From Goekera deserti (lineage in GTDB: Bacteria; Actinomycetota; Actinomycetes; Mycobacteriales; Geodermatophilaceae), in assembly GCF_010685995.1 (NCBI RefSeq), contig NZ_JAAGWK010000022.1, forward strand, positions 1 through 64,000: a stretch of 64,000 bases of DNA. The letters are read 5' to 3'. The first letter of the stretch is position 1. Every line of letters starts with the position of its first letter. The notes below the pieces were generated by a model. That model was not told where the DNA came from. It worked only from the letters and a program-made list of their open reading frames with translations, and searched no databases. Of the stretch, positions 39,097 to 56,866 are shown in pieces. Position numbers and translations under genes: made by a program.

Positions 39097-39109
39097 GGCT
39101 CGTCGTCCT

Positions 39110-39598
39110 CTACTTGATCAGCGGGCGGTCGCGGAACACGAGGCGGAACAGCAGCGTCAGCAGCCGGTCGGAGAGGAACCCCGCGACGGCGATGCAGATC
39201 ATCCCGACGACGATCTGGTCGGTCTGCACGACGTCGCGGGCCAGGAAGATCGTCGAGCCCAGGCCGGTCGGGACGCCGGTGGTCTCGCTGAGCACGAGGA
39301 TCACCCAGGCCAGCCCGAGCCCCACCCGCATGCCGTTGACGATCGCCGGGGCGGCGGCCGGCAGCACCACGCGCATCAGCACCCCGACGCCGGACGTGCC
39401 GAGCATGCGGGCGGCCTCGATCAGCCGCTCGGGCACCTGCCGGGCGCCGCTGATCGTGCCGAGCACGATGGGGAAGAACGCCGACAGCGTGATGAGGAAG
39501 ATCGAGGCCTGGTCGCCGTAGCCGATGAGCAGCGCGACCAGCGGCACCCAGGCGGTCGCCGGCACCGGCCAGAACAGGTTGATCATCGGGTCGAACCC
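39110..39598 (-). pseudogene. ABC transporter permease, N-terminally truncated
   Basis: Only the C-terminal 160 residues of a BPD-type permease remain: INLFWPVPATAWVPLVALLI, the EAA-like loop GARQVPERLIEAARMLGTSG, and GMRVGLGLAWVILVLSETTG. Family members have about 250-280 residues, so about 100 residues with the first two or three helices are missing. Upstream of about 39,598 the minus-strand frame loses all similarity because the DNA there belongs to another gene on the plus strand. A start at ATG 39586 would give a 158-residue fragment. Confidence 0.85.
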
Positions 39599-39827
39599 CC
39601 GCCCGGTGCTCGTGCCGGAGGACGAGGCGCACCTGTCGGAGTGGATGAACGGGACACTGCGGTTGACGTGGGCGGAGCACCCGGAGCCGTGGACGGTGGA
39701 GGCCGCGGTGATCGACGAGCTCCAGCCTCCGCTGAACCAGGCGGACAACACGGCGCACCCGGCGTACGAGTACGTGCGGCAGGCCCGGCGACGCTGGCGC
39801 GAGGCAGCGAAGGGGACGCAACGCTGA
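39596..39827 (+). pseudogene. 3' remnant of a GIY-YIG-type nuclease family gene
   Basis: The plus-strand frame from about 39,596 reads RPVLVPEDEAHLSEWMNGTL, RLTWAEHPEPWTVEAAVIDE, LQPPLNQADNTAHPAYEYVR and a stop at 39827. 'EDEAxLSxWM...EPWxVExxVIxxLxPPLN...HPxYxxVRxAR' is the C-terminal pattern of a GIY-YIG-associated protein family. The N-terminal GIY-YIG part is missing: it ends exactly where the truncated permease begins on the other strand. Confidence 0.7.
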
Positions 39828-39864
39828 GGCCGCTGCCGCCCCGCGCGCCCCCGGCCGGTTCTCG

Positions 39865-41730
39865 TCAGGTGACGAGCGACTCGAGCTTCTGCTGGGTCTC
39901 GGCGTCGGTGGAGTGCAGGTAGACGCCGCGCAGACCGCGGGTGAGGAGCACCTTGTAGACGTTGCGCACGAGCAGGTCGAAGTCGGCGTCGCTGACCTTG
40001 GTCACGCTGCGGAAGTCGGGATCCCGATTGGCCGACCGGACGGCGATCCAGCGGTCGGTGCGCCACACCAGGTCAGGGCCCATGAGCACGCCGTTCCACT
40101 CGTACTCGAATCCCTGGGCGGTGTAGACACACCCGACCTGCCCGAAGCCCCGCTCGTCGCTGGCCCACAGGGCGGCCGGCGGGGCATCTCCCACCGAGCG
40201 GTCGCCCTTGAGGTTCCACGGCCGGGACCAGTCCCCGATACGGACGTCAGGTACCAGGCTGCCGTCCTTCTGCGGGTCACTCCACGGCCAGCAGTAGCCG
40301 GCCGCGATACGCGCGTTCTCCTTCGCTGCGAGCTTCTCGGCCAGGGCCTGTTCGATGGCCGACGGCGACGGGGCGGTCCGGACGTCGAAGCGCTCGTCGC
40401 CCGTCCACGCGACCGGGCCCCCGGCCTGCAGCCCGAGCAGCTTCTCGACCCAGTCGATGTACTGGGCGCTGCCGCCGGAGCGGTACTGGGTCGACAGGTC
40501 GATGTGGTGGACGTCGAGCCCCTTCTCGCGGGCGTGCTTCTCGATGTCCTCGATGGTGCCCATCTCCCCGGGCCGCACGACCTGGTTCTGGTCGAGCAGG
40601 AACACCGGCACGCGTGCGGCGTCGATCAGCTCGTCGATCTGGCGTCGGTCGCTGCGCAGCTCGGCCTTGGTCCACCGGTTGGCCGACGTCTCGCGGATGC
40701 GGTGTGCCTCGTCGGCGATGAGGACGTCGAGGCCGTTCCGGTCGGCTTCCATGAACTGGTTGAAGTACCGGAACAGGGCAGCGGTGCGCGGAGCGCGGTG
40801 GCCGGCGACCTTGCGCAGCGTCTGGGTGAACGAGCGCGAACCGGTGGCGTGCGCAGCGCTGATCCCCCGGCGGCCGAGCTCACCGAGCAGGGAGAGTGCG
40901 ATGACGCTCTTCCCGCTGCCCGGGCCTCCGGCCACGATGACGACGCTCTTGTGGTCGCCGCGGCGCGCCTTCTCCACCTCGTGGAGCACCAGGTCGAAGG
41001 CGACTCGCTGCTCGTCCAGCAGGACGAACTGCTCGCGCGTGCGCATCTCCTCGGCGGCCACCCGCAGCAACTGCTTGCTGGGCGCGTGCGGGGAGCGCAA
41101 CAGCCGGTCGGCGTGCACGGCGGCGTTCACCGGTGACAGACGCGACTGCAGGTAGGTCAGGAAGTCGCCACGGTCCCGACCGGTGAACAGTCGCCCGAGC
41201 TCGTCCTGCGGGTAGCTGCGCAGGACGTCGACCCGCTCGTCCGTGGCGTTGTGCAGGTAGGCGGCGCCGGACAGCACGTCGGTGGTCCCGTGCAGCACGG
41301 TGACGAAGTCCAGCAGGTACTCGCCGTAGGCGCGGACCTGAGCGACGGGGTGCAGTACCGGTCGCGGGCCGTAGCTGGGCTGGAGGATCAGCTCGGGATC
41401 ACCCTCGAACAGGGTCGCTGCCGTCCACTGCTTGAGCTCGACGACCACGTACGACGGGCCACCGGTGCGGGGGTGCTGGCCGGCGAGCACGACGTCGATC
41501 CGCTTGCTGGACAACGGGAGCTGGTACTCGAGCAGGACCTCGACGCCCTGGAGGTCGGCCTGAGCGAGGTCGGCGGCCAGCGCGCCGAGGCTGGCGTCCC
41601 ACGAGCGCACCTCGGACGCCGACGGGCTGCGGCTCATCCGATGACGCATCTGATCGGCCAGCGTCGACCCGAGGCGACCGGACGCCGCAAGGGTCGCCAG
41701 GCCGGCGGCAGACGTACGGAGCAGTGACAA
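39865..41730 (-). CDS. DUF2075 helicase-like protein with N-terminal nuclease-like domain
   Basis: A 621-residue protein. Residues about 60-110 hold a PD-(D/E)XK-like pattern (LSSKRIDVVLAG, then SYVVVELKQW). From about 270 a P-loop NTPase of the DUF2075 / Schlafen-type helicase group follows: Walker A VAGGPGSGKSVIALSLL, DVLIADEAHRI (Walker B), VFLLDQNQVVRPGE and the C-terminal GCVYTAQGFEYEWNGVLMG. It is a likely DNA or RNA nuclease-translocase. The start is TTG 41730 with GGGGAC upstream. It lies 110 bases after the PLD-helicase on the same strand, so the two may act together in defence. Confidence 0.85.
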   Translation of the reverse strand: MSLLRTSAAGLATLAASGRLGSTLADQMRHRMSRSPSASEVRSWDASLGALAADLAQADLQGVEVLLEYQLPLSSKRIDVVLAGQHPRTGGPSYVVVELKQWTAATLFEGDPELILQPSYGPRPVLHPVAQVRAYGEYLLDFVTVLHGTTDVLSGAAYLHNATDERVDVLRSYPQDELGRLFTGRDRGDFLTYLQSRLSPVNAAVHADRLLRSPHAPSKQLLRVAAEEMRTREQFVLLDEQRVAFDLVLHEVEKARRGDHKSVVIVAGGPGSGKSVIALSLLGELGRRGISAAHATGSRSFTQTLRKVAGHRAPRTAALFRYFNQFMEADRNGLDVLIADEAHRIRETSANRWTKAELRSDRRQIDELIDAARVPVFLLDQNQVVRPGEMGTIEDIEKHAREKGLDVHHIDLSTQYRSGGSAQYIDWVEKLLGLQAGGPVAWTGDERFDVRTAPSPSAIEQALAEKLAAKENARIAAGYCWPWSDPQKDGSLVPDVRIGDWSRPWNLKGDRSVGDAPPAALWASDERGFGQVGCVYTAQGFEYEWNGVLMGPDLVWRTDRWIAVRSANRDPDFRSVTKVSDADFDLLVRNVYKVLLTRGLRGVYLHSTDAETQQKLESLVT

Positions 41731-41840
41731 GGACAGTCCCCAGGCAGCACGAAGTCATCGTGCGGAGGGGGCATGTCCATGGTTCGGAAGCCTGTCGTAC
41801 CGCGTTCGCCGGTCACCCTAGACGGCGTCGAGGTGGGTGC

Positions 41841-44800
41841 TCAGGCGACTCGCGCGGCGTGGAAGACGTCGGCCGGCAGCTCGTGGTCGAGCTGCCACAC
41901 GATGCGCATCGGTCGGTTGCCGGTGTGCGACTGATAGCTCATCGGGCCGGCGTAGAGGTAAGGCGGCACCCCCAGTGCGCCGTCTTGTGTCTTGGTCTCG
42001 CGGACGAACAGGTGCACTGAGCTGCCCTGTTCCCGGTGTCGCATGTACCGCTGGCCCACCGGCGACGTCTCCGTGGTGGTGTTCTGTGACTCCCACTGGA
42101 ACAGCGTCGGCGTGATGGCGTGGTCGGCGTACATGGTCGTGGGGGAGAAGTGGCCCTCGGTCTTGGTCAGGGTCACGAAGAACAGGTCGGCCCGCTCGTC
42201 GGGCACCCAGCGGACGCCCGACCCGAAGGTGCCCGCCAGGTTCGTCATGCCGAACGCCGCGAGTGCCTCCTCTCGGCTGTAGCGAGCGTGTACGTGCAGC
42301 GGTCGGGCGCCGGGCGTCGTCGGCGCCACGCGGTGGATGCGTGTCCGCATGAGCTCGGCGAGCTCGCGCAGTTCGGATGCACGGACACGGTCGGCGAGCA
42401 GTCGCTCCAGAGTCGAGTTCGTGGACTGGAACGCCTCACCGGAGCCCCAGAGACCGAAGTGGAGCATCGCGGCCAGGCGGCGGCTGCGCTCGTCCTCGGG
42501 CATCCGTCCCGTGGTGAGCGCCAGCACCAGCTGGTCCAGTCGCTCTAGATCATCGAGGTGCAACATCCGCGCGAAAGCGCTGCGCAGCCGGTCGTCGTCG
42601 GGTCCGGGCGGGCTGATTTCCACACCAGAGCTGCGACGCAGATCGACCCAGCTGCGTCTCTGCCCGCGGTACAGGTCCTCGAGCTCCAGCCCGGTCTCGT
42701 CGAGGAAACCAGCCAGCCCGGTGTCGGGCACAGAGGACAGCTCGCGCGCCAGCTCGGGCCAGGGCAAGCGCAGGGACTGGCGGATGTTGTCCAGCACCAC
42801 CTGTTGCGCCACCCGGTCGAGCTGGACAGAGCAGCCGGCGGGCAGGGTGGGGAACCCGAGCTCGACCTCACGCTCCAGCCCCCGGCGCGACGCCCCGGTC
42901 AGGGCGCGGAAGCGACGGTCGAACCGGAAGTCGCGGTGCTGGGCACCGATGAAGTCGAGCACCGTCAGGCAAGCCTTACCCGGCGACAGTCGCAGCCCCC
43001 GTCCGAGCTGCTGGAGGAACACCGTCGCGCTCTCCGTGGGGCGCAGGAACAGAACCGTGTCGATCTCGGGCAGGTCGAAGCCCTCGTTGAACAGGTCGAC
43101 GCTGAAGAGCACGTTGACGCTCCCGTCGCGCAACGCTCTCAGCGCCGCGGCACGCGCGTCGGAGTTGTCGCGCGAGGTGACGGCGAGGCTGCGGATGCCG
43201 GCGGCCGAGAACCGCTCGGCCATGAACGAAGCGTGCTCGATGCTGACGCAGAAGCCCAAAGCCTTCATGGCTTGCGGGGCGCTGACGGTGTCCAGGACCG
43301 CCTGCAGAATCAGTCGGGCCCGAGCGTCGCTGCCGGTGTACAGGTTGGTCAGCTCGCCGACGTCGTAGCCCTTGCCCCGGCGCCAGGTGACGCTGTCCAG
43401 GGGGACGTCGTCGTGCCGGCCGAAGTACTGGAACGGTGAGAGGAGCCCCTGCTCCAGTGCTTCCCACAGTCGCAGTTCGACGGCGATCCGCCCGTCGAAC
43501 CAGCGCCGGACGTCGGTGCCGTCTGTGCGTTCGGGGGTCGCCGTCAACCCGACGAGCACCTTCGGCTGCAGGTGCTCCAGCAGTCGTCGGTAGGTGGCCG
43601 CCTCCGCGTGGTGGAACTCGTCGACGACGACCAGGTCGAACAGGTCCGGCCGCATCGTCGAGAGGTCCAGCTGCGCGAGTGACTGCACCGAGGCGAAGAC
43701 GTGCTGCCACTGCGTGGGCTTGTGGCCGTCGACGAGCAGCTCACCGAAGTCACCGCGCCGCAGCACCTGCCGGAAGGTGGAGCGGCTCTGGGTCAGGATC
43801 TCCTTGCGGTGAGCCACGAACAGCACCGTCTCGGCGTGACCGGCAGCGCGCAGCGCCCTGTAATCCAACGCGGACACGACCGTCTTGCCCGTCCCGGTCG
43901 CCATCACGACGAGGTTCTTCCACCGATCGTGCACCAGACGCTCGGCGTCCAGTGCCTCCAGAATCTCCTGCTGGTAGCCGAACGGTCGGACGTCGAGCGA
44001 CGTCAGCTCGGTCGGCTGGTCGCCGCGGCCACTGCGCTCGACGGCGAGGGCCCGGTCGAACTCGTCGCCGTCGTACGGCTTGAACGACGCGTCGTGCCAG
44101 TAGGTCTCGAAGGTGTCGGCGAACGTCTCGAGCAGGTGTGACTGCTCGACGGCGGACAACCGGACGTTCCACTCCAGGCCGTCGATGAGCGCAGTCCGCG
44201 ACAGGTTGGACGAGCCGACGTAGCCGGTGGAGAAGCCGCTCTTCCGGTGGAAGAGCCAGGCCTTGGCGTGCAGGCGCGTCGTCCGGGTCTCGTAGGAGAT
44301 CCGGACCTCGGCTCCGGCAGCGACCAGGCGATCCACGGCACGTCGTTCCGTTGCGCCCATGTAGGTGGTGGTGATGACGCGCAGTCGGACTCCGCGGCGT
44401 TGTGCCTCGTCGAGTGCCTGCTCCAACACGCGGACGCCGTGCCAGGTGATGAACGCGCACAACAGGTCCACCGAGTCGGCTGACGCCAGCTCCCGCTCGA
44501 CCTCATAGCCGATGCGGGGCTGTCCGCGGCCGTTGATCAGCAACGCACTGGTGCTGAGCGGCACTTTCGGGCGCACCGGGAAGACTGCCGGGGCCGGGGT
44601 CGTCCGCGGCGTCGCCACCGCTAGAAGCTGCTCGCCGGGCGCTCTGACGTCGTCATCTTGGGGGATGAGCTCGGGACCTGAGGCCTGTCGCACTGCGTCG
44701 GCGATGCGGTTGGTGAGTTCGACCTGGGCCCTGATGCCCTGCCCGGATACGGACCGGAGTGCGCGCGCGACGAGGCCGGACAGGTGACGCGTGAGCGCGA

Positions 44801-44921
44801 CGTGGGAGTCCGCGGCATCCAGTTCCCCACGGTCGACGAGTTCGCCGTCCACCGCCTCCAGTCGACGGGCGAGCCCCCGCGTCATCAGGTGCTCGTAGAT
44901 GCCCGGCTCTACGTCCGACAT
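41841..44921 (-). CDS. DEAD/DEAH helicase with N-terminal PLD nuclease domain and DUF3427
   Basis: A 1026-residue protein. A phospholipase-D-like nuclease domain (about 130-330) contains one HxK...GSxN half-site, RLHAKAWLF and GYVGSSNLSRTAL. A superfamily 2 helicase follows: Walker A MATGTGKTVVSA, DEFHHAEA (DEAH variant), LTATPERTDGTD and motif VI QLGRGLRLSPGK. The C-terminal part (about 750-1026, with WVPDERADLFFVTLTKTEGH) is DUF3427. Proteins of this architecture occur in phage-defence islands. ATG 44921 has GGGGGAT upstream. It is divergent from the NERD gene across 143 bases. Confidence 0.92.
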   Translation of the reverse strand: MSDVEPGIYEHLMTRGLARRLEAVDGELVDRGELDAADSHVALTRHLSGLVARALRSVSGQGIRAQVELTNRIADAVRQASGPELIPQDDDVRAPGEQLLAVATPRTTPAPAVFPVRPKVPLSTSALLINGRGQPRIGYEVERELASADSVDLLCAFITWHGVRVLEQALDEAQRRGVRLRVITTTYMGATERRAVDRLVAAGAEVRISYETRTTRLHAKAWLFHRKSGFSTGYVGSSNLSRTALIDGLEWNVRLSAVEQSHLLETFADTFETYWHDASFKPYDGDEFDRALAVERSGRGDQPTELTSLDVRPFGYQQEILEALDAERLVHDRWKNLVVMATGTGKTVVSALDYRALRAAGHAETVLFVAHRKEILTQSRSTFRQVLRRGDFGELLVDGHKPTQWQHVFASVQSLAQLDLSTMRPDLFDLVVVDEFHHAEAATYRRLLEHLQPKVLVGLTATPERTDGTDVRRWFDGRIAVELRLWEALEQGLLSPFQYFGRHDDVPLDSVTWRRGKGYDVGELTNLYTGSDARARLILQAVLDTVSAPQAMKALGFCVSIEHASFMAERFSAAGIRSLAVTSRDNSDARAAALRALRDGSVNVLFSVDLFNEGFDLPEIDTVLFLRPTESATVFLQQLGRGLRLSPGKACLTVLDFIGAQHRDFRFDRRFRALTGASRRGLEREVELGFPTLPAGCSVQLDRVAQQVVLDNIRQSLRLPWPELARELSSVPDTGLAGFLDETGLELEDLYRGQRRSWVDLRRSSGVEISPPGPDDDRLRSAFARMLHLDDLERLDQLVLALTTGRMPEDERSRRLAAMLHFGLWGSGEAFQSTNSTLERLLADRVRASELRELAELMRTRIHRVAPTTPGARPLHVHARYSREEALAAFGMTNLAGTFGSGVRWVPDERADLFFVTLTKTEGHFSPTTMYADHAITPTLFQWESQNTTTETSPVGQRYMRHREQGSSVHLFVRETKTQDGALGVPPYLYAGPMSYQSHTGNRPMRIVWQLDHELPADVFHAARVA

Positions 44922-45064
44922 GTGATCCCCCGATTGCCCGAGCCGCCGCCCCCGGCGGCGGCCAGGGCCGATTTCGCGCTCCAAGTAATGGCACTGATAC
45001 GAACCGTCAGCATCTCATCCGGCGTGGTGATGACCACCGTCCGGTCCACCAGTTCACTCAGTGC

Positions 45065-45748
45065 GTGCTCGACACGACTCAGATCGACCCCGGGACACCC
45101 GGCGGTTCCCTTCTCCGCACCTATGAGGCCCGTCGTCTTGCGCGGGAGGAAGCGGTCCGCTGCAGGCACCCCCGAATCGGCGGCCTGATGTTGGCGCTTC
45201 AACGAGAGCCGGGCACCATCTCGGCTTTCCGGAGCGGTGCGGAAGGCGAGGCCCTGGTCGCCGAGCGGCTTAGACGCGCGTGTGGGCCCGACGTGCAGTT
45301 GCTCTTCAACCGCAGCTTGGGGGCAGGTCGTCGGGACGGAGACATCGACGTGCTCGCCGTGACCCCGACCGGTGTGCATGTCATCGACGTGAAGAAGTAC
45401 GCAAGAGCAACCGTGCGGGTGCGGCGCACGGGTGGCCTGATCAGCTTTGTCACCGAGCAGCTGATGGTCAACGGTCGAGACCAGACTCGGCTTCTCGCCT
45501 CAGTCAAGCGCCAAGAGGACGCAGTCCGGGATGCCCTGTCCACCCTTCCGTGGTCCGACGTGGTGCCTCTGCACCTCGCGCTCTGCTTCGTAGGTTCAGA
45601 TCTGCCCCTTTTCGCGAAACAAGTGCAAGGGGTCGCGGTACTCGGGGCCAAGGGGCTCGCTAAGCGGCTCAACTCGGTTGGCTCGCTGGGACCTACACTC
45701 CGCGCGTCTATGACCCGACATCTTGCAGTGCAGTTGCCGGTCGCCTGA
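45065..45748 (+). CDS. NERD domain protein (nuclease-related)
   Basis: A 227-residue protein. The NERD domain runs from FRSGAEGEALVAERLRRACG through LLFNRSLGAGRRDGDIDVLA and VTPTGVHVIDVKKYARATVR: the E...D-I-D...D-V-K pattern is a PD-(D/E)XK-type centre. The next segment VNGRDQTRLLASVKRQEDAV is also family-like. A paralogue of the same length lies at 56201-56866 and aligns from SLLRTYEARRLAREE onward, which supports the GTG 45065 start. It is divergent from the PLD-helicase. Confidence 0.85.
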   Translation: MLDTTQIDPGTPGGSLLRTYEARRLAREEAVRCRHPRIGGLMLALQREPGTISAFRSGAEGEALVAERLRRACGPDVQLLFNRSLGAGRRDGDIDVLAVTPTGVHVIDVKKYARATVRVRRTGGLISFVTEQLMVNGRDQTRLLASVKRQEDAVRDALSTLPWSDVVPLHLALCFVGSDLPLFAKQVQGVAVLGAKGLAKRLNSVGSLGPTLRASMTRHLAVQLPVA

Positions 45749-45940
45749 GGCCACAGGGGAATCGATAGGGCCCCTTGAGACGCTGTTGGGGCACTCCAAG
45801 GCCGTGCTTCGTTCGGCGACGCGCAGCAAGTGTTGATCGTCGACCAACTGACGCGCCTGAGCGTGCATGATCAGGAGATCAATGCAGGAGGCGCTAAAGA
45901 GTTATTCGAGATCGAGCACGCTTCTACTCGACGGGTTTTG

Positions 45941-46029
45941 GGTTCAAGTCCTATCGAGGGAGCTCTGACCAGGGCATATAGCTCTGGAGCTTCGAACCAG
46001 GCGTCATCAACTCATCGGAAACCGATGAG
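45941..46029. other. Candidate attachment-site remnant: T-arm-like box and hairpin beside the integrase
   Basis: ggttcaagtcc (45941-45951) matches the consensus of a tRNA T-arm (B box), but no foldable tRNA body surrounds it. Sixty bases on, ctcatcgg-aaa-ccgatgag (46011-46029) is a perfect 8-bp hairpin just before the integrase start. Phage-type integrases often sit beside a tRNA-derived att site, so this may be a degenerate one. There is no gene in 45749-46041 otherwise. Confidence 0.3.
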
Positions 46030-46041
46030 GGCAGGTGCCGC

Positions 46042-47264
46042 ATGGGACGACCACCGCTGCCGGTGGGCACGTTCGGCAAGATCGGCTTCCTGCTCTTGCC
46101 CAGCGGTGAGATTCAGGCCCGCGCCCGCTTCCGGGACTTCGACGGCCGCACCCGGCTGGTCTCCAAGACCGGTGTCAGCCGCGCTGCCGCTGAGCGGGCG
46201 CTGAAGACCGAGTTGCCCGCCCGCCGCGGGCCCGGGGGAGCCGGGGTCATCACCGCGAGCTCCCGGGTGTCCGCACTCGTCGAGGCATGGCTGGCGCACC
46301 ACGGCTGGTCCACCGGCACCGAACGCACCTACCGCTCGGTGATCCGCACCTCGGTGCTCCCCGCCTTCGGCCAGCTGACGCTGTAGGAGGCCACCCACGG
46401 CCGGGTCGGCCGCGCGCTCACCGCGATCGCCAAGGCCAGCGGGCCGGTGCGGCCAAAACCGCCCGCGCCTGCCTGTCCGGCATGTTCTCCCAGGCCACCG
46501 ACGACGGCGCCGTCGGTGCCAAACCCGTGCGCGACGCCACCGTCCGGATCGACACCACCGCCACGAAGGCACCCCGGGCGCTGATCGTCGAGCAGACTAC
46601 CCGGCTGGTCGAGCTGTTCCGGGGGAGTGCCCGGGCTAACGAGCTGGACGTCGTCGACATCGTCGACTGGATGCTCGCGACCGGTGCGCGGATCGGTGAG
46701 GCGGTGTCGCTGCGGACGGCGGAGACCGCCGGTTGACCGCTGCTGGACCTGGACGCCGGCACCTGGGAGGTCATCGCGACCGCGGTGCGGGTGCCCAAGC
46801 AGGGGATGGTCGTCCAGCCGCGGACCAAGACCGCCGCCGGCTGGCGGATCATTGCGGTGCCGGAGTTTGCGATCGAGATGGTGCGCCGCCGGCTCGCGTC
46901 ACCCCACCGGCCGGACACCGAGCTGGTCTTCCCGGCGCCGTTCGCCGGGACGCTGCGCGACCCGAACAGCGTCTCCGGTGACCTGCGCCAGCTGCTGGAC
47001 TCCTTCTTGTGCGAGGTATTCGACGGAACCGGCTTCCTGCCGGCGACGAGCACGTCGCCGGCGGGCCGCCGGGTGCGCTGCACTAAGGGGCCCTGGTCCT
47101 GGGTCACCCCGCACACCTTCCGCAAGACGGTGGCCACCCGGCTCGACGAGGCTGGGATCACCCCCGCGGCAGGTCGCCGATCAGCTCGGTCACGCCAACC
47201 CGTCGATGACCCTGAACGTCTACTTCGGCCGTCAGGTCGTCAGCTCCAGCCGCTCGTCCACCTC
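46042..47264 (+). pseudogene. Tyrosine recombinase/phage-type integrase, multiply disrupted
   Basis: The protein can be followed through several frames: MGRPPLPVGTFGKIGFLLLP and the SAM-like core-binding domain (EAWLAHHGWSTGTERTYRSV), a TAG stop at 46384-46386, EATHGRVGRALTAIAKASGP, a frameshift, ARACLSGMFSQATDDGAVGA, the catalytic Arg region ATGARIGEAVSLR, a TGA at 46734-46736, PLLDLDAGTWEVIATAVRVP, TPHTFRKTVATRLDEAGITP, an extra C, then QVADQLGHANPSMTLNVYFG. All catalytic residues (R, H-x-x-R, H, Y) are present, so it was a real integrase, now dead by two stops and two frameshifts. Confidence 0.88.
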
Positions 47265-47364
47265 AGCTGGCGCCTGCGGAGCACGTTCAGGGAGGAGTCA
47301 GATAGCGCGCCGAGCCTCCTGTACAACGCCATCGCAGCTAAGTTTCGCTGCAGTCGGGGCGCCG

Positions 47365-47934
47365 ATGTCCATCGCGTCGCTCTTCCCGACGGACGCCTTC
47401 ATCCACCGCCTTGGAGGCGTCGCGCCACAGCTGCAGATCAACTCGCCCGGGCAGGCGCAGGAGTTCGATCGACTCAACTCCGAGAGCGAGTTTCGGCGCG
47501 GCGTGTCAGCCCCGTTGGCGGGGCTGCTCGGCCAACTTAGTTGGGACGTCGCGCCCTGGCTGCTGCCTGTGGCGCTCGCGTTACCGGTCGTGCTGCTCGG
47601 CCAGTCGTTCCGCCGTCAACGCGGGGCGATCAATGTCCTGGCCAACAGCGTCTACCTAGACCAGATGAAGCTCCCCGCCTTCGAGCGGTGCGTCCAGGTG
47701 CTCGGTGACGCACATCCACCGGCCGGGGCACCGTTCGGGGCGTGAGTTGCGGCCACGTCCATCGCGTGGCAAAGCACGGAGGAATACTGGCTCTCGCATG
47801 GGATCGCAACCCAGTTCTACGAGAGGTACGAATCTGACGCAGCGGAAGTCGATGCCTTCCGCCAGTACGTCCTAGCGCATGCGCCCGGCCACCAAGACCT
47901 GCTTGTGTACTGGGGTCACCCGCTGGCTTCGTGA
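47365..47934 (+). pseudogene. Unknown single-TM protein split by an in-frame TGA
   Basis: ATG 47365 opens MSIASLFPTDAFIHRLGGVA, then a hydrophobic helix (DVAPWLLPVALALPVVLLGQ), ending at TGA 47743-47745. The same frame continues with protein-like sequence SIAWQSTEEYWLSHGIATQF, YERYESDAAEVDAFRQYVLA, HAPGHQDLLVYWGHPLAS to a stop at 47934. Together this is about 189 codons, a one-helix membrane protein with a cytoplasmic C-terminal domain. No family is recognised. It could be a cargo gene of the dead element. Confidence 0.55.
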
Positions 47935-48652
47935 ACCGGCGCACCAACGTCAATCCCGCGCTGGCCTAGCCAACCCGGGGGGAATCAGCTCAGCACACGC
48001 GCATATCTACGTCCTGGCCCCCTGAGTGGCAGACGACACTCGACGTTTCCCGCGGCGCAACAGCATGGATGACACCCTGCTGTGCTTGGGCAGCTGCCGA
48101 ATACGAGGCCCTGGGTCGCCGACCTAAGGGAAACCGGGTGGAAGTGCGGCAGCCAAGCTGACAGTGCCCTCCGCAGGCAGTGACGTGCCGATGGCGGCTC
48201 GATCGGCTCAGCGAGTGCCGTGCGGCGACGCCGCGCCCTTGGTCTCCCACCACCGGTCGCACTGACCTCCTCGCAGAGCACGCGGCGGCCCACCTTGACC
48301 CCCGCCGGTCCGATCTCGGCGTGACGCCAGTACCAGGCCGTGGCCGGGCTTGTTTGAATTTACGCGGCGGCGTCCTCAGTCGTGAGAAGTCGAGATGACA
48401 TCGCGTCCCTTCAGGATCTTATGGTCGTTGGTCACCTCGAAAGGCGTTGGACGTTCCGTGCGGCTGCCGACCACCGCAAGGGACCTCGCGGCGCGCGATG
48501 GCAGGACGCGACTCCTCCAGGTCATCCCGGGCGCCGCCCGCCGCTTCACGGCGCGTCACCACCGGCTCAGGCGTTCCTGGCCGGCGCGTGGCTGTCGGTT
48601 CCTCCGCAACGCCGAGGTCGAAACTGTCGGACCCTCTTGCGAGTCTCGGCGC
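47935..48652. other. Long intergenic stretch before the orphan nuclease-like gene
   Basis: About 720 bases without a convincing gene. Frames on both strands (for example 47990-48262 minus, 48180-48398 plus) are short, Arg/Cys-rich and lack ribosome sites. An AT-richer patch at 48350-48365 (ttgtttgaatttacg) is the best promoter candidate for the next gene. Composition is less GC-rich than the chromosome average around it. Confidence 0.4.
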
Positions 48653-51073
48653 ATGAGCCGGGAGAACCACCGTATCGAGCTCGTCGGACCGGGTCTGGTC
48701 ACTAGGACGGCGCGCGCGCTGGACGAGCTGCAGGGCCTGGCGGATGGGGCGTCCGACGTGCAGACCGTTCTCGCCAACATCGAACGCGAGATTGAAACGA
48801 GTCGACACGCACTGGAGGTTCTCCTGCGCGGGCGGGACTCCTTCGACACGCTTGCATTCATCCGCCATGCCGTCAGCCCTTGGGAGCTCAGTCAGTCGCA
48901 TGAATCAGAAACCACTGTGGAAACTTCCCAAGCCGCCCAGGATGTCATTGCACTTGTCCTCCTTGGAATGGGACTGCCGAGAACGCCTTTAACGGGACAG
49001 AATTCTGGCCAACCTGACTGCGCAGAGGCGATGCGTCTAGCCGGCAGAATTGTCGACTGCTGTCGGACCCTCGCCGTCTTCCGAGGTCGCCTGTCGAAGC
49101 TGCCTCTCGCATCGCTCGCCGGCGAGTTCCTGGGGTACGAACTCTCCGTGAGGGGCCGTCAGTACCAGTCCGTTGCCGAAGAGCTGAACTCCGGACTGCT
49201 CAAAGACCCCACAGTAAGCAAGATCATGGCTGACGTGCTTGGCTTCACGGTTGATGTGATGCGATTAACCCGAACAGCTTCCCTTCAGCTATTCAATCAA
49301 CGCTTCTTCGGTGCGCGTGACCGAATCGGCGACCTAGTCCAGTCTGGCGTCAACCCGACCGAGCTCGAGGCGGAAGCGGCTCGACGAGATTACAATCTGA
49401 TGTTGAACGAGTGTCGACTCTTCGGCGCGGTATCGTCGGCCGATGTGTCAGCTCTCGCCGGTATTGAGCAGGACTCGGCTCGACGCATTCTCGAATTCTT
49501 TGCAACTGCTCGACCCGAGACGACCGAACCCGGTATGGTCGACCGATATCGTCTCGGGAGGACCACCGGTCCGGGCGGGAGCATTCGCGACGGTGACGAA
49601 TACCTGATCCTCAATGGCTTCATGGCTGAGGACGAACTGCGCCGCAACCTCGAGAGGGGCTTTCTCGCTGCGGCAGCCGCGGGCGGGAGAGCTGCGCCGG
49701 CCTGGGACAAATACGTGCGTCGACGGGCGGCCTTCTCCGAAACCATGACCGGATCGACGATCGGCCGGCTGTTAGGCGGAGCTCAGCCGCGCTGGACTGG
49801 GCAGCATTACCTCGGCCCCGTCGACCCCGCAGACCACGCCGAGTTCGCTAGTGGGCGCACGCCGGTCGCGGGTGAAGGACGCACCTTCGAGTCCGATCTC
49901 CTCTTCATCGTAGACGGCGTGGCCCTGTGCGTCGAGGTGAAGGCGGGATCGATTACCGAGAAAGCGCGCAGTGGCAACGCGCAACGTCTGGCCGCGGACC
50001 TGCAGAAGACGCTGTCGGAAGCCAACACGCAGGCGAACCGCCTGGCGACGCTCGTCAAGTCCAACAATGGCGTGTGGGCGAGCGACGGCAGTTGGCTCGA
50101 TCTGTCCGCCGTTCAGGAGATCCACTCAGTCGTCGTAATGCTCGACGACATGGGGCCACTGTCGCTCGCCATGAACGAACTGGCCCAGCAGGGGGTCATT
50201 GCAACGACCGACGTGCCGTGGATCGTAAGTCTTCACGATCTGATCGTCTTCAGTCGCACCATTGACCATCCCGCTCAATTCCTCGAGTACGTGCGACGAC
50301 GGCGGGGCCGTAAGCTCGCTACCATGGTCGTCGGCGCCGACGAGTTGGACATGCTGATGTGGTTCATGACCGGTGGAATGTTCTTCGAGCCGGATCCGGA
50401 CGAGGTTAGTGCGCAGGTCCCCGTTCTGCGGCGGGTGCGACCGTCTGAGATCAGACGGTTTGAAGATGAGGGGCGGGTCCACCTCGGAACCCTGACCGAT
50501 CCGCTCGACGCGTGGATCTACTCGACAGAAGGCACTTCCCACCGGGCCGCTCCGAAGCCGACGCGCCGAGAAGAACCGTGGGTCGAGGCTTATCTCGCGG
50601 CGAGCGAATCAGCGCAGTGGCCTGGATGGCTACGAACGGGTGCTGATCTGGTGAGCCTCAGTCGCAGCTCGCAACGCCACATCGGCAAGTCGCTGAAAAC
50701 GGTTCGACGACTGGCGCGAACCGCTGACCGAGAACGAAGCCTCACAACCCACGGGACAACCCCCTACGGATCATGGTTGCTGACACTGGCCGTTGCTAGA
50801 GCGGGCGTGCCGGTAGGTCACCTCGTCGACTACATCGAAGCGAAGCAGTACCAGACCGCATCCAACCGGGCACTGCTCCTCATCTACCGACCGGATGGCT
50901 CGATCGCGACGTCCCAGTATCGCGGCGAACCCCAACCGCGATCGCCGGAGCGGGACATCGAGATCGCGACGTCCCCACTCCTCAGTCTCGACGAGACGTT
51001 CGCGAAAGCACCGCCACGCGGGCAGCGGGGCCCCGCCTCGAAGCGACGAAAGCGACCGAAGCGACGACGGTGA
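48653..51073 (+). CDS. Large orphan protein with PD-(D/E)XK nuclease-like motif
   Basis: An 806-residue protein that I cannot place in a named family. The N-terminal 380 residues are mostly helical (LANIEREIETSRHALEVLLR; NQRFFGARDRIGDLVQSGVN). At about 411-430 there is a clear nuclease-like core, TFESDLLFIVDGVALCVEVK, with a Gln-containing helix after it (QRLAADLQKTLSEANTQANR): the E/D...E-x-K pattern and spacing fit a PD-(D/E)XK fold. The end is very basic (KRRKRPKRRR). There is no signal peptide or membrane helix. Codon use is less GC-biased than its neighbours. ATG 48653 is chosen as the first start with protein-like sequence; ATG 48395 is possible. Confidence 0.7.
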   Translation: MSRENHRIELVGPGLVTRTARALDELQGLADGASDVQTVLANIEREIETSRHALEVLLRGRDSFDTLAFIRHAVSPWELSQSHESETTVETSQAAQDVIALVLLGMGLPRTPLTGQNSGQPDCAEAMRLAGRIVDCCRTLAVFRGRLSKLPLASLAGEFLGYELSVRGRQYQSVAEELNSGLLKDPTVSKIMADVLGFTVDVMRLTRTASLQLFNQRFFGARDRIGDLVQSGVNPTELEAEAARRDYNLMLNECRLFGAVSSADVSALAGIEQDSARRILEFFATARPETTEPGMVDRYRLGRTTGPGGSIRDGDEYLILNGFMAEDELRRNLERGFLAAAAAGGRAAPAWDKYVRRRAAFSETMTGSTIGRLLGGAQPRWTGQHYLGPVDPADHAEFASGRTPVAGEGRTFESDLLFIVDGVALCVEVKAGSITEKARSGNAQRLAADLQKTLSEANTQANRLATLVKSNNGVWASDGSWLDLSAVQEIHSVVVMLDDMGPLSLAMNELAQQGVIATTDVPWIVSLHDLIVFSRTIDHPAQFLEYVRRRRGRKLATMVVGADELDMLMWFMTGGMFFEPDPDEVSAQVPVLRRVRPSEIRRFEDEGRVHLGTLTDPLDAWIYSTEGTSHRAAPKPTRREEPWVEAYLAASESAQWPGWLRTGADLVSLSRSSQRHIGKSLKTVRRLARTADRERSLTTHGTTPYGSWLLTLAVARAGVPVGHLVDYIEAKQYQTASNRALLLIYRPDGSIATSQYRGEPQPRSPERDIEIATSPLLSLDETFAKAPPRGQRGPASKRRKRPKRRR

Positions 51074-51342
51074 CCAAGAGATGACCTTTTATCTGGCAGC
51101 GTGGCATCGGTGAGCGCAGGTCCGGTCGCGACGCCTGATGGACTTGCGGGACGTCGGACGGCTCCTCAGGTGTACTGCCTCCCTTGTGCCCACAGATGGG
51201 TGGGCAGAGCCGACAACCGAGTCGCAATCGGCACGTGGCCCGATGGTTCGCCCATCGACGAGTACTGCCGGGCGGCACCAGCAACGCCGCCGTCTCCCGA
51301 TTCACGCGCGCCGACAAGTGTCACCCCCCCGCGACGCGAGAA

Positions 51343-51690
51343 TCAGTCGCGCGGCCTCGTCATGGAGGTCCACTGCAGCCCGTCGAACCAGCGCAGGAGC
51401 GAAGCATCTCCCTGCGGGTCCGAGTAGAAGCCCGCGGGCGGAGCGACGACCGGAACGGGCGCCGGGGCGCCCAGCTCGCCGCGCATGTCCCGCACTGCCT
51501 CGCGCACGTTGGCGTGATCGTTCTGGTTGATCATCTGTCGCTGGTTCTCGATCATGACGCCGGTCTGCACGACCTGGACTCGCGCAGCGTTGCGCGTCTG
51601 CTTGGCGTACTTCACGGCACGCTCGCCCTTGCTGCGGTAGCCGATCATGCCCGCAGTGCTGATCGACATGGTCTTGCGCAGGATGCCCAT
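51343..51690 (-). CDS. DUF2510 domain protein
   Basis: A 115-residue protein. The C-terminal DUF2510 module is AGFYSDPQGDASLLRWFDGL followed by QWTSMTRPRD (the W/F-D-G-x-x-W pattern). The N-terminal part is basic and helical (YRSKGERAVKYAKQTRNAAR, then VQVVQTGVMIENQRQMINQN). DUF2510 is a small actinobacterial domain of unknown function, usually on membrane proteins; no membrane helix is seen here. Confidence 0.8.
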   Translation of the reverse strand: MGILRKTMSISTAGMIGYRSKGERAVKYAKQTRNAARVQVVQTGVMIENQRQMINQNDHANVREAVRDMRGELGAPAPVPVVAPPAGFYSDPQGDASLLRWFDGLQWTSMTRPRD

Positions 51691-51889
51691 CGTGTCCTCT
51701 CGTTCCTACGTGTGAGACGACATGGTGCTGCTTCCTCCAGATGTGCTAGCCCACTGGACACGCTCAAGTGACCCGAGTTGGTGACCTGGGGACCGGGTCC
51801 GCTGGGGCCATGGGAGCCGCAGCTCAGAGGGCTCGCGGGCCGCGTCACCCTTCGCCAGCCTGCGGTTCGCCGACTGTGGCGAGCTGCTC

Positions 51890-52105
51890 GTGCACTCCAG
51901 CAATCAGTGGCAAGCCCACCAGTCCGACCGCTACGGCGAGCGCTCGGCGCCCGGCCTCATTGTCCGGACTGAACTGCGCGGGGCGCACGTCAGCGACCCC
52001 GGCGAGCTCATGTACCCGGAGCAGTCCGCCGTCCACGACTTCGCCGCCGGGGACCTCGCGGGCCTGGCGCAGCTCGGCGCGGGAGCGTGCGAGCCCGCGC
52101 TCTGA
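51890..52105 (+). CDS. Short conserved-looking frame, possible gene fragment
   Basis: The plus-strand frame, open from 51785, reads SPFASLRFADCGELLVHSSN, QWQAHQSDRYGERSAPGLIV, RTELRGAHVSDPGELMYPEQ and ends at 52105. Amino-acid composition is protein-like, but there is no good start or ribosome site; GTG 51890 is simply the first start codon. It may be the tail of a deleted gene. The rest of 51691-52126 holds nothing I recognise. Confidence 0.3.
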   Translation: MHSSNQWQAHQSDRYGERSAPGLIVRTELRGAHVSDPGELMYPEQSAVHDFAAGDLAGLAQLGAGACEPAL

Positions 52106-52126
52106 CCGCTCCCGACGCCACGTCGG

Positions 52127-52816
52127 TCAGGCGCCGCGCTCCGCGGACTGCTTCCGCTGGTCCTGCGCCCGCCGCCGCCTCACCTCGGCCCGCGCCACCA
52201 CGAACGCCACCAGCACCGGGGCCACGTACGTCGCCTTGTCCAGCAGTTCCCGCACCCACGCGGGCAGCTCGGGCAGGTCCCAGTCGGGCAGCGGGATCGT
52301 CGGCAGGTCCCAGTCCGGCCACGGGATGGACGGCAAGTCCCAGTCCGGCCACGGGATCGCCGGCAGCGACACCTGGGCCAGCAGCCACAGCACCACCAAC
52401 GGCAGCACGACGCCGAGGACGGCGCCTCCGGCGTGCCGGGCGGCGTGCAGGTTGGGGTGGGCGCGGATCCACGCCTCCCGAGCGGCCGCCTTCGACCCCG
52501 GCTCGGGGTCCAGGTCGGTGCCGCCGAGACCGGTGTGCGCAGCGGCCACGGCGCCGGGCCTCGTGTCGGGCGACCACCAGGTGATGCGCCGGGCGGGACC
52601 GGTGAAGCGCGGCAGCCTGACCCCGACCGCACCGTGCTCGCCGCCGTTGAGGACGACGTGCTCGTCGCTGGTCGTGGTCGCCGCGACCTCGGTGCCGTCG
52701 ACCAGCCAGCCGACCCGGCGGCGCAGGCGGACCTCGGTGATCTCGACCCGGTGCTCGCGGCCGTCGCAGGTCAGCAGCCACCGCTCGGGTGCCTTCCGTG
52801 AGCGCAGCGACGTCAC
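52127..52816 (-). CDS. Membrane protein with WPDWD repeats
   Basis: A 229-residue protein of unknown family. An N-terminal beta-rich domain (RWLLTCDGREHRVEITEVRL) is followed by a transmembrane helix (GAVLGVVLPLVVLWLLAQVS), a striking run of 10-residue repeats LP[A/S/T]IP[W/L]PDWD (three copies, encoded by 30-bp repeats about 52271-52363), a second hydrophobic helix (YVAPVLVAFVVARA) and a basic tail. GTG 52816 has a TATCAT hexamer seven bases upstream and no ribosome site, which suggests a leaderless message. It is divergent from the TetR gene. Confidence 0.7.
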   Translation of the reverse strand: MTSLRSRKAPERWLLTCDGREHRVEITEVRLRRRVGWLVDGTEVAATTTSDEHVVLNGGEHGAVGVRLPRFTGPARRITWWSPDTRPGAVAAAHTGLGGTDLDPEPGSKAAAREAWIRAHPNLHAARHAGGAVLGVVLPLVVLWLLAQVSLPAIPWPDWDLPSIPWPDWDLPTIPLPDWDLPELPAWVRELLDKATYVAPVLVAFVVARAEVRRRRAQDQRKQSAERGA

Positions 52817-52855
52817 GCGTGGATGATAGAGCGACCACTCCAGGAAAGGCGAGCC

Positions 52856-53672: not shown

Positions 53673-54341
53673 AGTGGACGGCGTGAGGTGCCGTGGCCCG
53701 TGTCGCGTCCTCGGACGCAGTGGGGCCGCCCGTCCGGGCGGTGACCACCACTGTCCGCCGGTCGGCGCCCGAACTCAACCCTGATCCCGCCCGTTCATCC
53801 TCGTCCGGCCGTAGCCCAGCGCGGTGCCACCGGCGTCCGGGACGTGGTCCAGCCGGGCGGCCGCATCGGCAGGACCTCCCGGGTGAGCTCGCGCAGCACG
53901 GGGTCGGACAATGGAGGGCCTGCCGCCGCGGTACGTCGGCCGCAGCCCGGCGTGCGCGCCGGCCGGCACGTCACCCACCTGCACCGTCGTGGTCACGACC
54001 ACCGGCCACGTGCGATCGGCGTGCGACGGACCCGGCTGAGGAACGCGGCCAGCGAGGAGGAGCCCATGGACACCCTGATCGGACGGGACACCGGCGCATG
54101 ACCCGCGTCACATGGTGGGTAGGTCGGCGGGGGGCGCCGACCGGCGCCCATGGGGGAGCGGACATGGCGACGTCCTCGACAGAGATCGGTCCACCGTCGA
54201 CACGTCCGCCGGTCGTCGACACCACCGAGCCCGGCCGACCGGCCGCGCTCCCGGGCGCCTCCCTCACCCGCAGTGGGTGACGCATCCGGCCGTTTCCGCC
54301 GAACGGTCAAGAAGCTCGGCACGGGCGTCGATCCCTCCTCG
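53673..54341. other. Intergenic region before the GGDEF-EAL gene
   Basis: About 670 bases without a secure gene. There is a short minus-strand frame at 53911-53795 (DPVLRELTREVLPMRPPGW). On the plus strand an 11-codon mini-ORF at 54066-54101 has a strong GAGGAGGAG site; a second frame, 54164-54280, also has a Shine-Dalgarno. These could be leader peptides or decayed small genes. The GGDEF start itself is uncertain (GTG 54273 is an in-frame alternative to 54342). Confidence 0.35.
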
Positions 54342-56099
54342 GTGAGCCGACGACGAGCCCCCGACGTGGCGACGCCACGCGTGATGGCGCGCACGCTGAG
54401 CGTGTTCTTCCTCTTCGGTGGCGTCACCGGCTCGCTCGTGGCGCTGGGTGCCGGCTCGGCCGGGTACGGGCGCGAGGTCCTCGCGGGCCTCTCGCTGTGC
54501 GCGGTGCTCGCCGCCGCGGTCGCGCACCGCTGGGGGCTGCGCTGGCGTCGGAACGTCTTCCACCTGCCCCTGGCCGGCGGAGGCGGACTCATCCTCGCCG
54601 CTGTCTCGGTGAGCCCCGACCCGGCCAGCGCGGTCGTCTGCGCGGCGATCATGTCCTTCGTCATCATCGACGTGTACTTCTTCTTCAGCTTCCTCGTCGC
54701 CTCCACGCACCTCGCCGTCTGGCTGCCTGCGGTGACCGCGGCGCTGCTCGCCCACGGCACGGTGTCCTGGGGTACCACCTTGGCCCTCGACGTGATCATG
54801 ATCGCGCTGGGTGTTGTCACCCGTGAGCTGGTCGTCCGCGCCTCCGGCGCCAGCCGGGACCCGCTCACCGACCTGCGCAACCGCCGCGGCCTGGACGACG
54901 CCCTGCGCGAGCTGATGGTCACCGTGCCGCGCACCGGTGAGCGGCTGTCCGCAGCCCTGCTCGACCTGGACAACTTCAAGACCATCAACGACACGCAGGG
55001 CCACGACGCCGGGGACGCGGTGCTGCGCGAGGTCGCCGACGTCTGGCGCCGCGCACTGCCGCCCTCGGCCGTGCTCGCCCGGCACGGCGGCGACGAGTTC
55101 GCCCTGCTGCTGCCCGGCGTCCCCGGGCCCGCCGCCCTGGAGCTGGTGCGCCGGCTGTGCGCGCTGCACCCCGACATCCGGCTGTCCTGCGGGGTGGCCG
55201 AGTACGTGGTCGGCGACAGCGCCGCGCAGCTGATGCGCCGCGCCGACCAGGCGCTGTACGCCGCCAAGGCCGCCGGTCGCGGCCGCTGCGAACTGGACGG
55301 CGGCGAGGTGTCCGACCTGGCCCGCGACCTGGCCGTCGCGCTGACCCACGGCGACGTCGCCGTGCACTTCCAGCCGATCCTTCAGGTGGCCACCGACGAC
55401 GTCGTCGGCGTGGAGGCCCTCGCCCGCTGGACCCACCCGGAGCGCGGGCCGGTGTCACCGTCGGAGTTCGTCGCCGTCGCCGAGCAGCACGGCCTGATCA
55501 CCGCCCTCGGCGAGCACGTGCTTCGCCAGACCTGCACCCAGCTGGCCGCGCTGCACGCCGCCACCGGACGCCGGCTGCGCGTCGGGGTCAACGTGTCCGG
55601 CATCGAGTTGTCCGACCCCACCTACCCCGACCGGGTGCGCGCCGTCTTCGCCGACACCGGCTGGCCCGCCGAGGAGGTGGTGCTCGAGGTGACCGAGAGC
55701 CTGCTCGACGCCGAGTCCGCGACCTCCGTGGCCACCCTGCACGCGCTGCGCGACCTGGGCCTGAAGGTGGCCATCGACGACTTCGGCACCGGCTACTCCT
55801 CGCTGAGCCGGCTGGACACCCTCCCGATCGACGTGCTCAAGGTCGACCACTCGTTCATCGCCGCCATCACCACCTCCCCGCGCCGGACCCAGATGCTCCG
55901 CAGCATCGTGGCCCTCGCCGGGGCGCTCGGCATGGACGTCGTCGCCGAGGGCGTGGAGACGCCGGAGCAGGACCTGCTGCTGCGCAGCGTGGGCTGCACC
56001 TTCGAGCAGGGCTGGCTGCACGGGCGCCCCATGCCGGTGGCCGAGCTGCAGGCCACCCTGGAGCGCCGGGACGGCGAGCTGACCCGGGCCACCGGCTGA
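54342..56099 (+). CDS. GGDEF-EAL cyclic-di-GMP protein with N-terminal membrane domain
   Basis: A 585-residue protein that makes and/or breaks cyclic di-GMP. N-terminally, five to six transmembrane helices (LSVFFLFGGVTGSLVALGAG; AAIMSFVIIDVYFFFSFLVA). The GGDEF domain has an intact core ARHGGDEFALLLPG and DLDNFKTINDTQGHDAGD, but no RxxD inhibitory site just before it. The EAL domain has VEALARWTHPERGPV, VNVSGIELSD, VTESLLDAESATS and KVAIDDFGTGYSSL, so both activities look possible. The sensory input is unknown. The start is uncertain. Confidence 0.9.
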   Translation: MSRRRAPDVATPRVMARTLSVFFLFGGVTGSLVALGAGSAGYGREVLAGLSLCAVLAAAVAHRWGLRWRRNVFHLPLAGGGGLILAAVSVSPDPASAVVCAAIMSFVIIDVYFFFSFLVASTHLAVWLPAVTAALLAHGTVSWGTTLALDVIMIALGVVTRELVVRASGASRDPLTDLRNRRGLDDALRELMVTVPRTGERLSAALLDLDNFKTINDTQGHDAGDAVLREVADVWRRALPPSAVLARHGGDEFALLLPGVPGPAALELVRRLCALHPDIRLSCGVAEYVVGDSAAQLMRRADQALYAAKAAGRGRCELDGGEVSDLARDLAVALTHGDVAVHFQPILQVATDDVVGVEALARWTHPERGPVSPSEFVAVAEQHGLITALGEHVLRQTCTQLAALHAATGRRLRVGVNVSGIELSDPTYPDRVRAVFADTGWPAEEVVLEVTESLLDAESATSVATLHALRDLGLKVAIDDFGTGYSSLSRLDTLPIDVLKVDHSFIAAITTSPRRTQMLRSIVALAGALGMDVVAEGVETPEQDLLLRSVGCTFEQGWLHGRPMPVAELQATLERRDGELTRATG

Positions 56100-56200: not shown

Positions 56201-56866
56201 GTGATCGAGAACGGCCCGAGCGCCGCGACCCCCGCCGCCTCCCTGCACCGCGTCTCCGAGCAGCGCAGGCGGGCCCGCGAGGAGCGGGCGCAGCGCCGGC
56301 GCGCCCGCCGCGGCGACCTGCTGCTGGTGCCCGAGGCCGAGCCCGCGACGACGGCGGTCTTCCGTCCCGGCGCCGACACCGAGCGGGCCGCCGCGGAGAC
56401 CCTGACCCGCCGGTGCGGCCCCGACGTCCGGCTGATGTTCCGGCGCAGCCTGGGCGCCGGGCGGGAGGGCGTCGTCGACGTCCTCGCGGTCACGCCGAGC
56501 GGGGTGCACGTCGTCGACGTGCGGCAGTACACCGGCTCGCCCGTGCGGGTGCGGCGCTCCACCGGGCTGGGCGAGCACCTGGTGGTCGGCGGCCGCGACC
56601 GCTCCGCGCTGCTCACCGCGCTGCAGCGGCAGGCCGAGGCGCTGCGGCTGGTGGCGGCCGAAGTGCCCACCGAGACCGACGTGCCGGTGTACCCGGCGTT
56701 CTGTTTCGACGTGGCCGACCTGCCGTGGGCGACCCAGTGGATCGCCGGCGTCCCGGTGCTGGGGCCGCGCGGCGTGGCCCGCCGGCTGAACGTGGGCGGC
56801 CCGCTGACGCCGGAGGCCGTGGCCCTGCTCGCCGCCCACCTCGCCGACCGGCTGCCGCCGGCCTGA
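56201..56866 (+). CDS. NERD domain protein (second copy)
   Basis: A 221-residue paralogue of the 45-kb NERD gene. The two align over their length: SLHRVSEQRRRAREE / FRPGADTERAAAETLTRRCG / LMFRRSLGAGREGVVDVLA / VTPSGVHVVDVRQYTGSPVR. Here the catalytic positions differ: D-I-D is V-V-D and D-V-K-K is D-V-R-Q, so the nuclease centre may be weakened. GTG 56201 has no clear ribosome site. It is followed by a strong terminator. Confidence 0.8.
   Translation: MIENGPSAATPAASLHRVSEQRRRAREERAQRRRARRGDLLLVPEAEPATTAVFRPGADTERAAAETLTRRCGPDVRLMFRRSLGAGREGVVDVLAVTPSGVHVVDVRQYTGSPVRVRRSTGLGEHLVVGGRDRSALLTALQRQAEALRLVAAEVPTETDVPVYPAFCFDVADLPWATQWIAGVPVLGPRGVARRLNVGGPLTPEAVALLAAHLADRLPPA

Follow-up and report, generated by a model that had tools for sequence, protein, structure and literature searches.

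Introduction

In E. coli Shedu, as described in an excerpt of a report on that system (PMC12904381), an N-terminal clamp binds DNA ends and the PD-(D/E)XK domain nicks at a fixed distance. Klebsiella GAPS1 blocks many phages, according to an excerpt of a conference report (PMC12908700); the phage-defence role that we ascribe to GapS1 comes from that excerpt and from the name of the NCBIfam model NF047931. Here we examine an 806-residue protein encoded in a window of 64,000 nucleotides (the whole stretch of Goekera deserti DNA that was analysed) and propose, from sequence comparison and a structure model, that it is probably an antiviral nuclease that works as a single protein and is a distant relative of GapS1. 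It shares with Shedu the single-protein form and the presence of additional parts flanking a PD-(D/E)XK nuclease, and the Shedu nuclease SduA is the top Foldseek match of its core. Unlike Shedu, however, it has no match to PF14082 (SduA_C) at E ≤ 10, and the source genome has no PF14082 match either; since the likeness is one of fold only, we do not regard the protein as a member of Shedu. With GapS1 it also shares the single-protein form, at a length of 806 residues as against 502-519 for the proteins used here on the GapS1 side. What is new is the combination of a GapS1-type core with added domains, for which no catalogue name was found; the GapS1 core itself is already known.

The gene and its product

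48653..51073, + strand: gene of the 806-residue PD-(D/E)XK protein, an intact reading frame with homologues along its full length

The reading frame reported in the initial annotation is present and unbroken, with 806 codons plus a stop. An in-frame start further upstream, at 48395, would give a protein of 892 residues; we prefer the shorter form because, among the five nearest homologues (46-58% identity, from four orders), four align from residue 1-8 of the 806-residue protein and the fifth from residue 39. Two compositional features that had been noticed from the letters alone are borne out by counting: the GC content of the gene is 62.6%, compared with 73.5% for the whole window, and the last 30 residues of the protein comprise 12 K/R and 2 D/E, making a very basic tail.

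No Pfam or NCBIfam model scored above its cut-off against the protein and none of the 5027 PADLOC models matched at E ≤ 1, in keeping with the early statement that it fits no known defence family. A match to a housekeeping family, which had been named as an argument against a defence role, was likewise found nowhere above cut-off in Pfam or NCBIfam. Searches of an open-access library gave no description of the family. The nuclease core has a weak match to NERD (PF08378; E 0.033, 15.1 bits, gathering score 22.1), but NERD membership is rejected because this match lies below threshold and because comparison by hhalign of the family with NERD proteins of related genomes, an alignment that mixes architectures, gave a probability of only 0.3%. 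Residues 661-725 also matched glycosyltransferase-4 models under their cut-off (E 0.011 and 0.15), which we attribute to chance.

Active site and fold

48653..49561, + strand: mostly helical N-terminal region, residues 1-303 (AlphaFold2 model), unaligned to GapS1; candidate sensor or regulatory part
49562..50320, + strand: GapS1-related core with PD-(D/E)XK nuclease fold, residues 304-556 (hhalign and fold comparison; the GapS1-like alignment spans 303-539)
49739..49942, + strand: span of the predicted catalytic residues (from alignment column counts; catalytic role by analogy with the superfamily)
49739-49741, + strand: codon of E363, predicted catalytic
49895-49897, + strand: codon of D415, predicted catalytic
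49934-49936, + strand: codon of E428, predicted catalytic
49940-49942, + strand: codon of K430, predicted catalytic
50321..51070, + strand: C-terminal alpha/beta part and basic tail, residues 557-806, with conserved Y727, K731, Q734 and R739; no GapS1 counterpart aligned

The PD-(D/E)XK centre proposed from the sequence (ESDLLF...VEVKAG) is real. In an alignment of 69 family members, from which 12 of the 80 loci are missing because their genes are short, split or over-long, E413 and D415 are each kept in 68 (with one gap), E428 in 68 (one D) and K430 in 68 (one N). Moreover, three residues outside the centre and absent from the initial annotation are kept in all 69, namely E363 upstream of it and Q460 and R463 downstream. 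The protein thus has the conserved D and ExK, and also the alpha/beta core fold, by which the PD-(D/E)XK superfamily is recognised. AlphaFold2 modelled the full 806-residue protein with a pLDDT of 90.1 and a pTM of 0.91. The long helical flanks that had been predicted are found on one side only: residues 15-282 are nearly all helix in the model, whereas the C-terminal flank is mixed alpha/beta.

A structure-based search, as proposed in the initial annotation, was run with Foldseek. The full-length model had no match at E ≤ 0.001 in the PDB or in the viral library, whereas the core modelled alone (residues 304-556, pLDDT 85.4) resembles PD-(D/E)XK nucleases. Its best Foldseek match is SduA (8ps5; E 8.1e-4, prob 0.92), in an alignment that is weak in shape (TM 0.29, rmsd 23.5). 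In VIA comparisons the core matched N.BspD6I (Z 9.1, rmsd 4.3 over 161), FokI (Z 8.9), Cdn1 (Z 8.6), XisH-like proteins (Z 8.2-8.3), McrC (7.2), Can2/Card1 (about 7) and NucC (6.3), all of which we take to be PD-(D/E)XK enzymes; EndoMS and RecBCD chains resembled the core weakly (Foldseek and VIA). Z values of 8-9 are modest. The stronger argument for a nuclease fold is that successive matches name nucleases of one superfamily and that the conserved motif is in place. The top VIA row for the whole model was Upx (9wuf; Z 10.0, rmsd 6.0 over 405), a protein with no sequence match at E ≤ 10. We did not accept this match, because the core-only model aligned with Upx residues 1097-1272 (Z 8.2, 133 aligned, 19% identity), and the two alignments, which assign the nuclease to different stretches of Upx, cannot both be right.

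Relation to GapS1

Scanned against NCBIfam, 11 of 58 family members matched NF047931 (GapS1) at E ≤ 0.1, and seven other models were each matched by one member. The 806-residue protein is not among the 11, its source genome has no NF047931 match even at E ≤ 10, and none of the genomes or records that carry family members (0 of 15 and 0 of 39) has a match above the curated cut-off of 320 bits. For profile comparison, a GapS1-side alignment was made of six proteins: four GapS1-like ones from actinobacteria, which score 37.7-61.1 bits, and two from the class of genome G478, one above the cut-off (429.5 bits) and one below it (166.9 bits). The family aligned with these six over residues 303-539 of the 806-residue protein (hhalign, 97.3%, E 2.5e-11), and the family core alone did so at 97.9% (E 5.5e-13); NERD proteins, compared as a control, reached 0.3%. 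Against the two higher-scoring proteins alone the match was weak (11.3% and 1.1% with two family alignments), whereas the four actinobacterial intermediates alone matched both the family (96.1%) and the two higher-scoring proteins (96.7% over 349 columns). Judged from these profiles, the core is remotely homologous to GapS1, chiefly by way of the four intermediates, which is not the same as membership of GapS1. The shared features are an NPLxxxPL-type segment (degenerate in the 806-residue protein), a helix with the conserved E, the D...ExK motif and the Q that follows it. In contrast, the N-terminal region of the 806-residue protein is unaligned, and 267 residues lie beyond the aligned core, compared with 64 in one of the GapS1-side proteins (L126).

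Distribution of the family

The initial annotation had called the gene an orphan, a description that does not hold, given dozens of homologues and the remote link to GapS1. A single-sequence search of genome contigs gave no relatives; tblastn against plasmids gave 15 records with relatives, and a search with an alignment built from these records and genome matches found 83 relatives, of which 80 loci were kept. By record titles all but one are from Actinomycetota, the exception (L100) being a 7.3-kb contig of a Salinicola bin; this make-up is partly built in, since the scan patterns were taken from an actinobacterial alignment. More distant relatives are found on plasmids of Salimicrobium and haloarchaea. 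No relative was found among phage records at E ≤ 1e-5, nor among viral contigs, which were scanned by two peptide patterns only.

Among 394 genomes of the class, 10 have a match, which in three of them is only in pieces; of 34 other genomes of the same family, one carries a match, a distant one, and among 59 relatives' genomes a match was present in the source genome and in one other. On a tree of the 69 members, 28 changes of order are required, against a minimum of 11 and a mean of 42.8 after shuffling, which suggests that the family has spread between orders while retaining a degree of vertical signal; part of this pattern could come from paralogy and binning errors. The idea of a horizontally acquired island gene gains from this patchy occurrence across orders and from the integrases found with relatives (see below). 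Four copies (L053, L099, L101, L109) lie in more than one reading frame and are either decayed or misassembled.

Gene neighbourhoods

Integrase (tyrosine recombinase) genes were detected in 19 of 80 family loci and in one of 34 control stretches (Fisher p 0.0065). The profile used was derived from family loci, the window among them, and thus favours such loci; the control stretches were drawn from fewer genomes. Of 87 upstream neighbours 7 lie on the same strand at less than 50 bp, and of 84 downstream neighbours none does (the gaps at L104, -628, and L050, -107, are probably due to start codons placed too far upstream), so the family is mostly monocistronic, as the single-gene arrangement first suggested would have it. 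Clustering of 1188 neighbour proteins of at least 70 residues, from 90 loci including the window (four loci, second copies of the same genomes, having been dropped), revealed no conserved partner gene; the largest clusters were integrases, in 18 loci, and ABC ATPases, in 11. Conservation at one syntenic core locus, which had been named as evidence against the defence reading, is therefore not seen, no neighbour family occurring in more than 18 of the 90 loci. In unannotated loci these genes come from a crude caller, which in the window missed the full length of the family gene and a NERD gene. The upstream neighbours of two loci (L063 and L109) have identical coordinates, so the two may share one island.

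Three relatives are found at defence genes. On the Gordonia plasmid pGKT2 (L005, 6096-18271) the family gene lies between HmaA (E 0) and HmaB (E 2.4e-300), followed by HmaC (E 2e-259). In Arthrobacter hankyongi (L041) it directly follows a type IIG-like restriction-modification gene (E 0), with a 4-bp overlap for its longest reading only (start 9983) or a 167-bp gap (start 10154), and in Mycetocola a brxA gene (E 1.1e-71) follows it at a distance of 500 bp. The check for defence-island enrichment, another of the early proposals, came out negative by a crude count: at E ≤ 1e-25, the 146 nearest neighbours matched 23 PADLOC models and the 146 control proteins 24, which gives no support for enrichment. 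The neighbours were 146 of 147 eligible proteins of 100-1500 residues from 80 loci and include one piece of the family gene (L094, 5545-5889); the controls, 146 of the 202 proteins that were eligible, come from other genomes of the family and order to which the window belongs. The two sets matched models of different names: AbiU, Drt3a, BrxA, PifA and GajB among the neighbours, and PD-T4-6, SspA/DndA, mad3 and IetA, which we read as housekeeping look-alikes, among the controls.

The genomic island

39597..52855, no strand: island, with its left edge inside an ABC permease gene and its end at the base before the next called gene
39865..41637, - strand: Schlafen group 3 DNA/RNA helicase-domain protein (domain E 3.2e-82)
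41841..44921, - strand: PLDc-ResIII-DUF3427 restriction helicase (Pfam domains; PADLOC type IV mREase)
45065..45748, + strand: NERD-domain protein (36.3 bits, above cut-off; match 45233-45538)
46042..47232, + strand: broken tyrosine recombinase (integrase), pieces in two frames

DNA homology with a genome of the same family (G016) runs from 38329 to 39596, taking in an ABC ATPase gene (38329-39096, 87% identity), ends inside the adjoining ABC permease gene and resumes in a colinear match at 54828-56048 (69%), within the gene 54273-56099. The two matches are 15.2 kb apart here and 5.6 kb apart in G016. The right edge of the island lies somewhere between the 806-codon gene and 54828, and 52855 is not a mapped boundary. 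In 1-kb steps, GC is 62-70% for most of the stretch from 40 to 52 kb, with 72% at 46-47 kb and 75% at 52-53 kb. The permease gene (39110-39751) is shortened at the island edge, the N-terminal part of its G016 counterpart being unmatched here.

The helicase and nuclease neighbours named in the initial annotation are confirmed by domain matches at 39865-41637 and 41841-44921, and its dead integrase by recombinase pieces at 46042-46389, 46449-47156 and 47155-47232. The restriction helicase, about 4 kb from the 806-codon gene, matches PADLOC mREase_IV (E 5.1e-282) in a longer reading of 1047 residues (41841-44984). It lies next to the Schlafen group 3 helicase gene on the same strand, neither gene having an interrupting stop, and the two may form one defence unit. 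Past the broken integrase is a coding-like stretch with one internal stop (47365-47934), and to the right of the 806-codon gene are a DUF2510 gene and a TetR regulator. A second NERD gene (PF08378) above the gathering score lies outside the island, at 56201-56866.

Function and alternative explanations

As judged from the comparisons above, defence is the likeliest function of the protein. Conservation of the active site, the nuclease fold, the GapS1 link, mobility, the mostly single-gene form, the three relatives at defence genes and, in the window, the nearby type IV-like restriction gene weigh for an antiviral reading. Against it weigh the PADLOC count, which does not separate neighbours from control, the TM of 0.29 with SduA, the modest Z of about 9, the weak match to the two higher-scoring GapS1-side proteins alone, the lack of an NF047931 match for the 806-residue protein itself and the relatives on 15 plasmid records, together with the fact that repair and plasmid functions, too, make use of PD-(D/E)XK enzymes.

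Some of these same observations could be accommodated by an abortive-infection nuclease, in which triggered cutting of host DNA or RNA would halt the infected cell. The core is like the signal-activated Can2/Card1, Cdn1 and NucC (Z 6.6-8.6 by VIA for the CRISPR ancillary nucleases Card1, Can2 and Cdn1), the modelled flanks are large and look regulatory, and PADLOC CARF_PDDEXK is matched by one of 58 family members (2.2e-5) and Card1_endonuc by one of eight (0.018). However, a shared fold is uninformative on the target, and unlike the CRISPR enzymes the 806-residue protein has no CARF-type domain found by Pfam, nor any other signal-binding domain recognised by Pfam or PADLOC; we consider this explanation rather unlikely. 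It is more improbable still that the protein guards its carrier island or plasmid against competing plasmids or conjugative elements, instead of phages, as a maintenance or exclusion nuclease. The plasmid copies, one of them 778 bp after a relaxase gene, the closeness of some copies to integrase, transposase and TniB-type genes and the lack of relatives in phage records (E ≤ 1e-5) would suit such a role, to which the relatives at Hma, BREX-type and restriction genes, and neighbour clusters devoid of a conserved transfer or partition partner, are opposed.

A housekeeping nuclease of DNA repair or recombination is very improbable, since the gene is patchy across orders and is matched in so few genomes of the class and family, even though repair enzymes often have a PD-(D/E)XK core, the core of this protein weakly resembles EndoMS and RecBCD chains and the basic tail could bind DNA. 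To a SecA-type translocase we give virtually no credence: the product name 'preprotein translocase subunit SecA' stands on four of five Streptomyces plasmid records with relatives, and homologues so named are L004, L006 and the plasmid hits H4 and H5, but no SecA or SEC-C Pfam model matches at E ≤ 10 and the core folds as a nuclease, so the label, which some public records attach to members of the family, is rejected.

Returning to the antiviral nuclease, its fold, active site, patchy spread and single-gene form follow directly from sequence and model, and its mechanism can be sketched by analogy with Shedu, the nearest worked example. The nuclease would be kept inactive by the C-terminal domain and the helical N-terminal part, and these would recognise a cue of infection, possibly phage DNA ends, an intermediate of phage DNA replication or a phage protein; the core would then cut DNA, presumably that of the phage first. 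The initial annotation had pictured a single-gene nuclease with a helical sensor half, of which the nuclease core, the helical half and the mostly single gene are found, the role as sensor being a conjecture. The few relatives inside or beside Hma, type IIG-like restriction or BREX operons could act as an extra cutter. Tentatively, it is possible that these proteins make up an undescribed defence family, for the most part actinobacterial, in which two large domains have been added to a GapS1-type core and determine its target; most genomes would use such a protein by itself, whereas in others it would have been recruited to Hma, BREX or type IIG-like restriction operons as an additional cutter. 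If protection against phages were confirmed, this would be a new, mainly actinobacterial defence family, unnamed in Pfam, NCBIfam and PADLOC, and would connect the GapS1 core with a wider set of nucleases whose flanking parts are exchangeable. The four actinobacterial GapS1-like proteins (L118, L119, L120 and L121), of about 500 residues and far under the GapS1 cut-off, are perhaps a second uncatalogued group.
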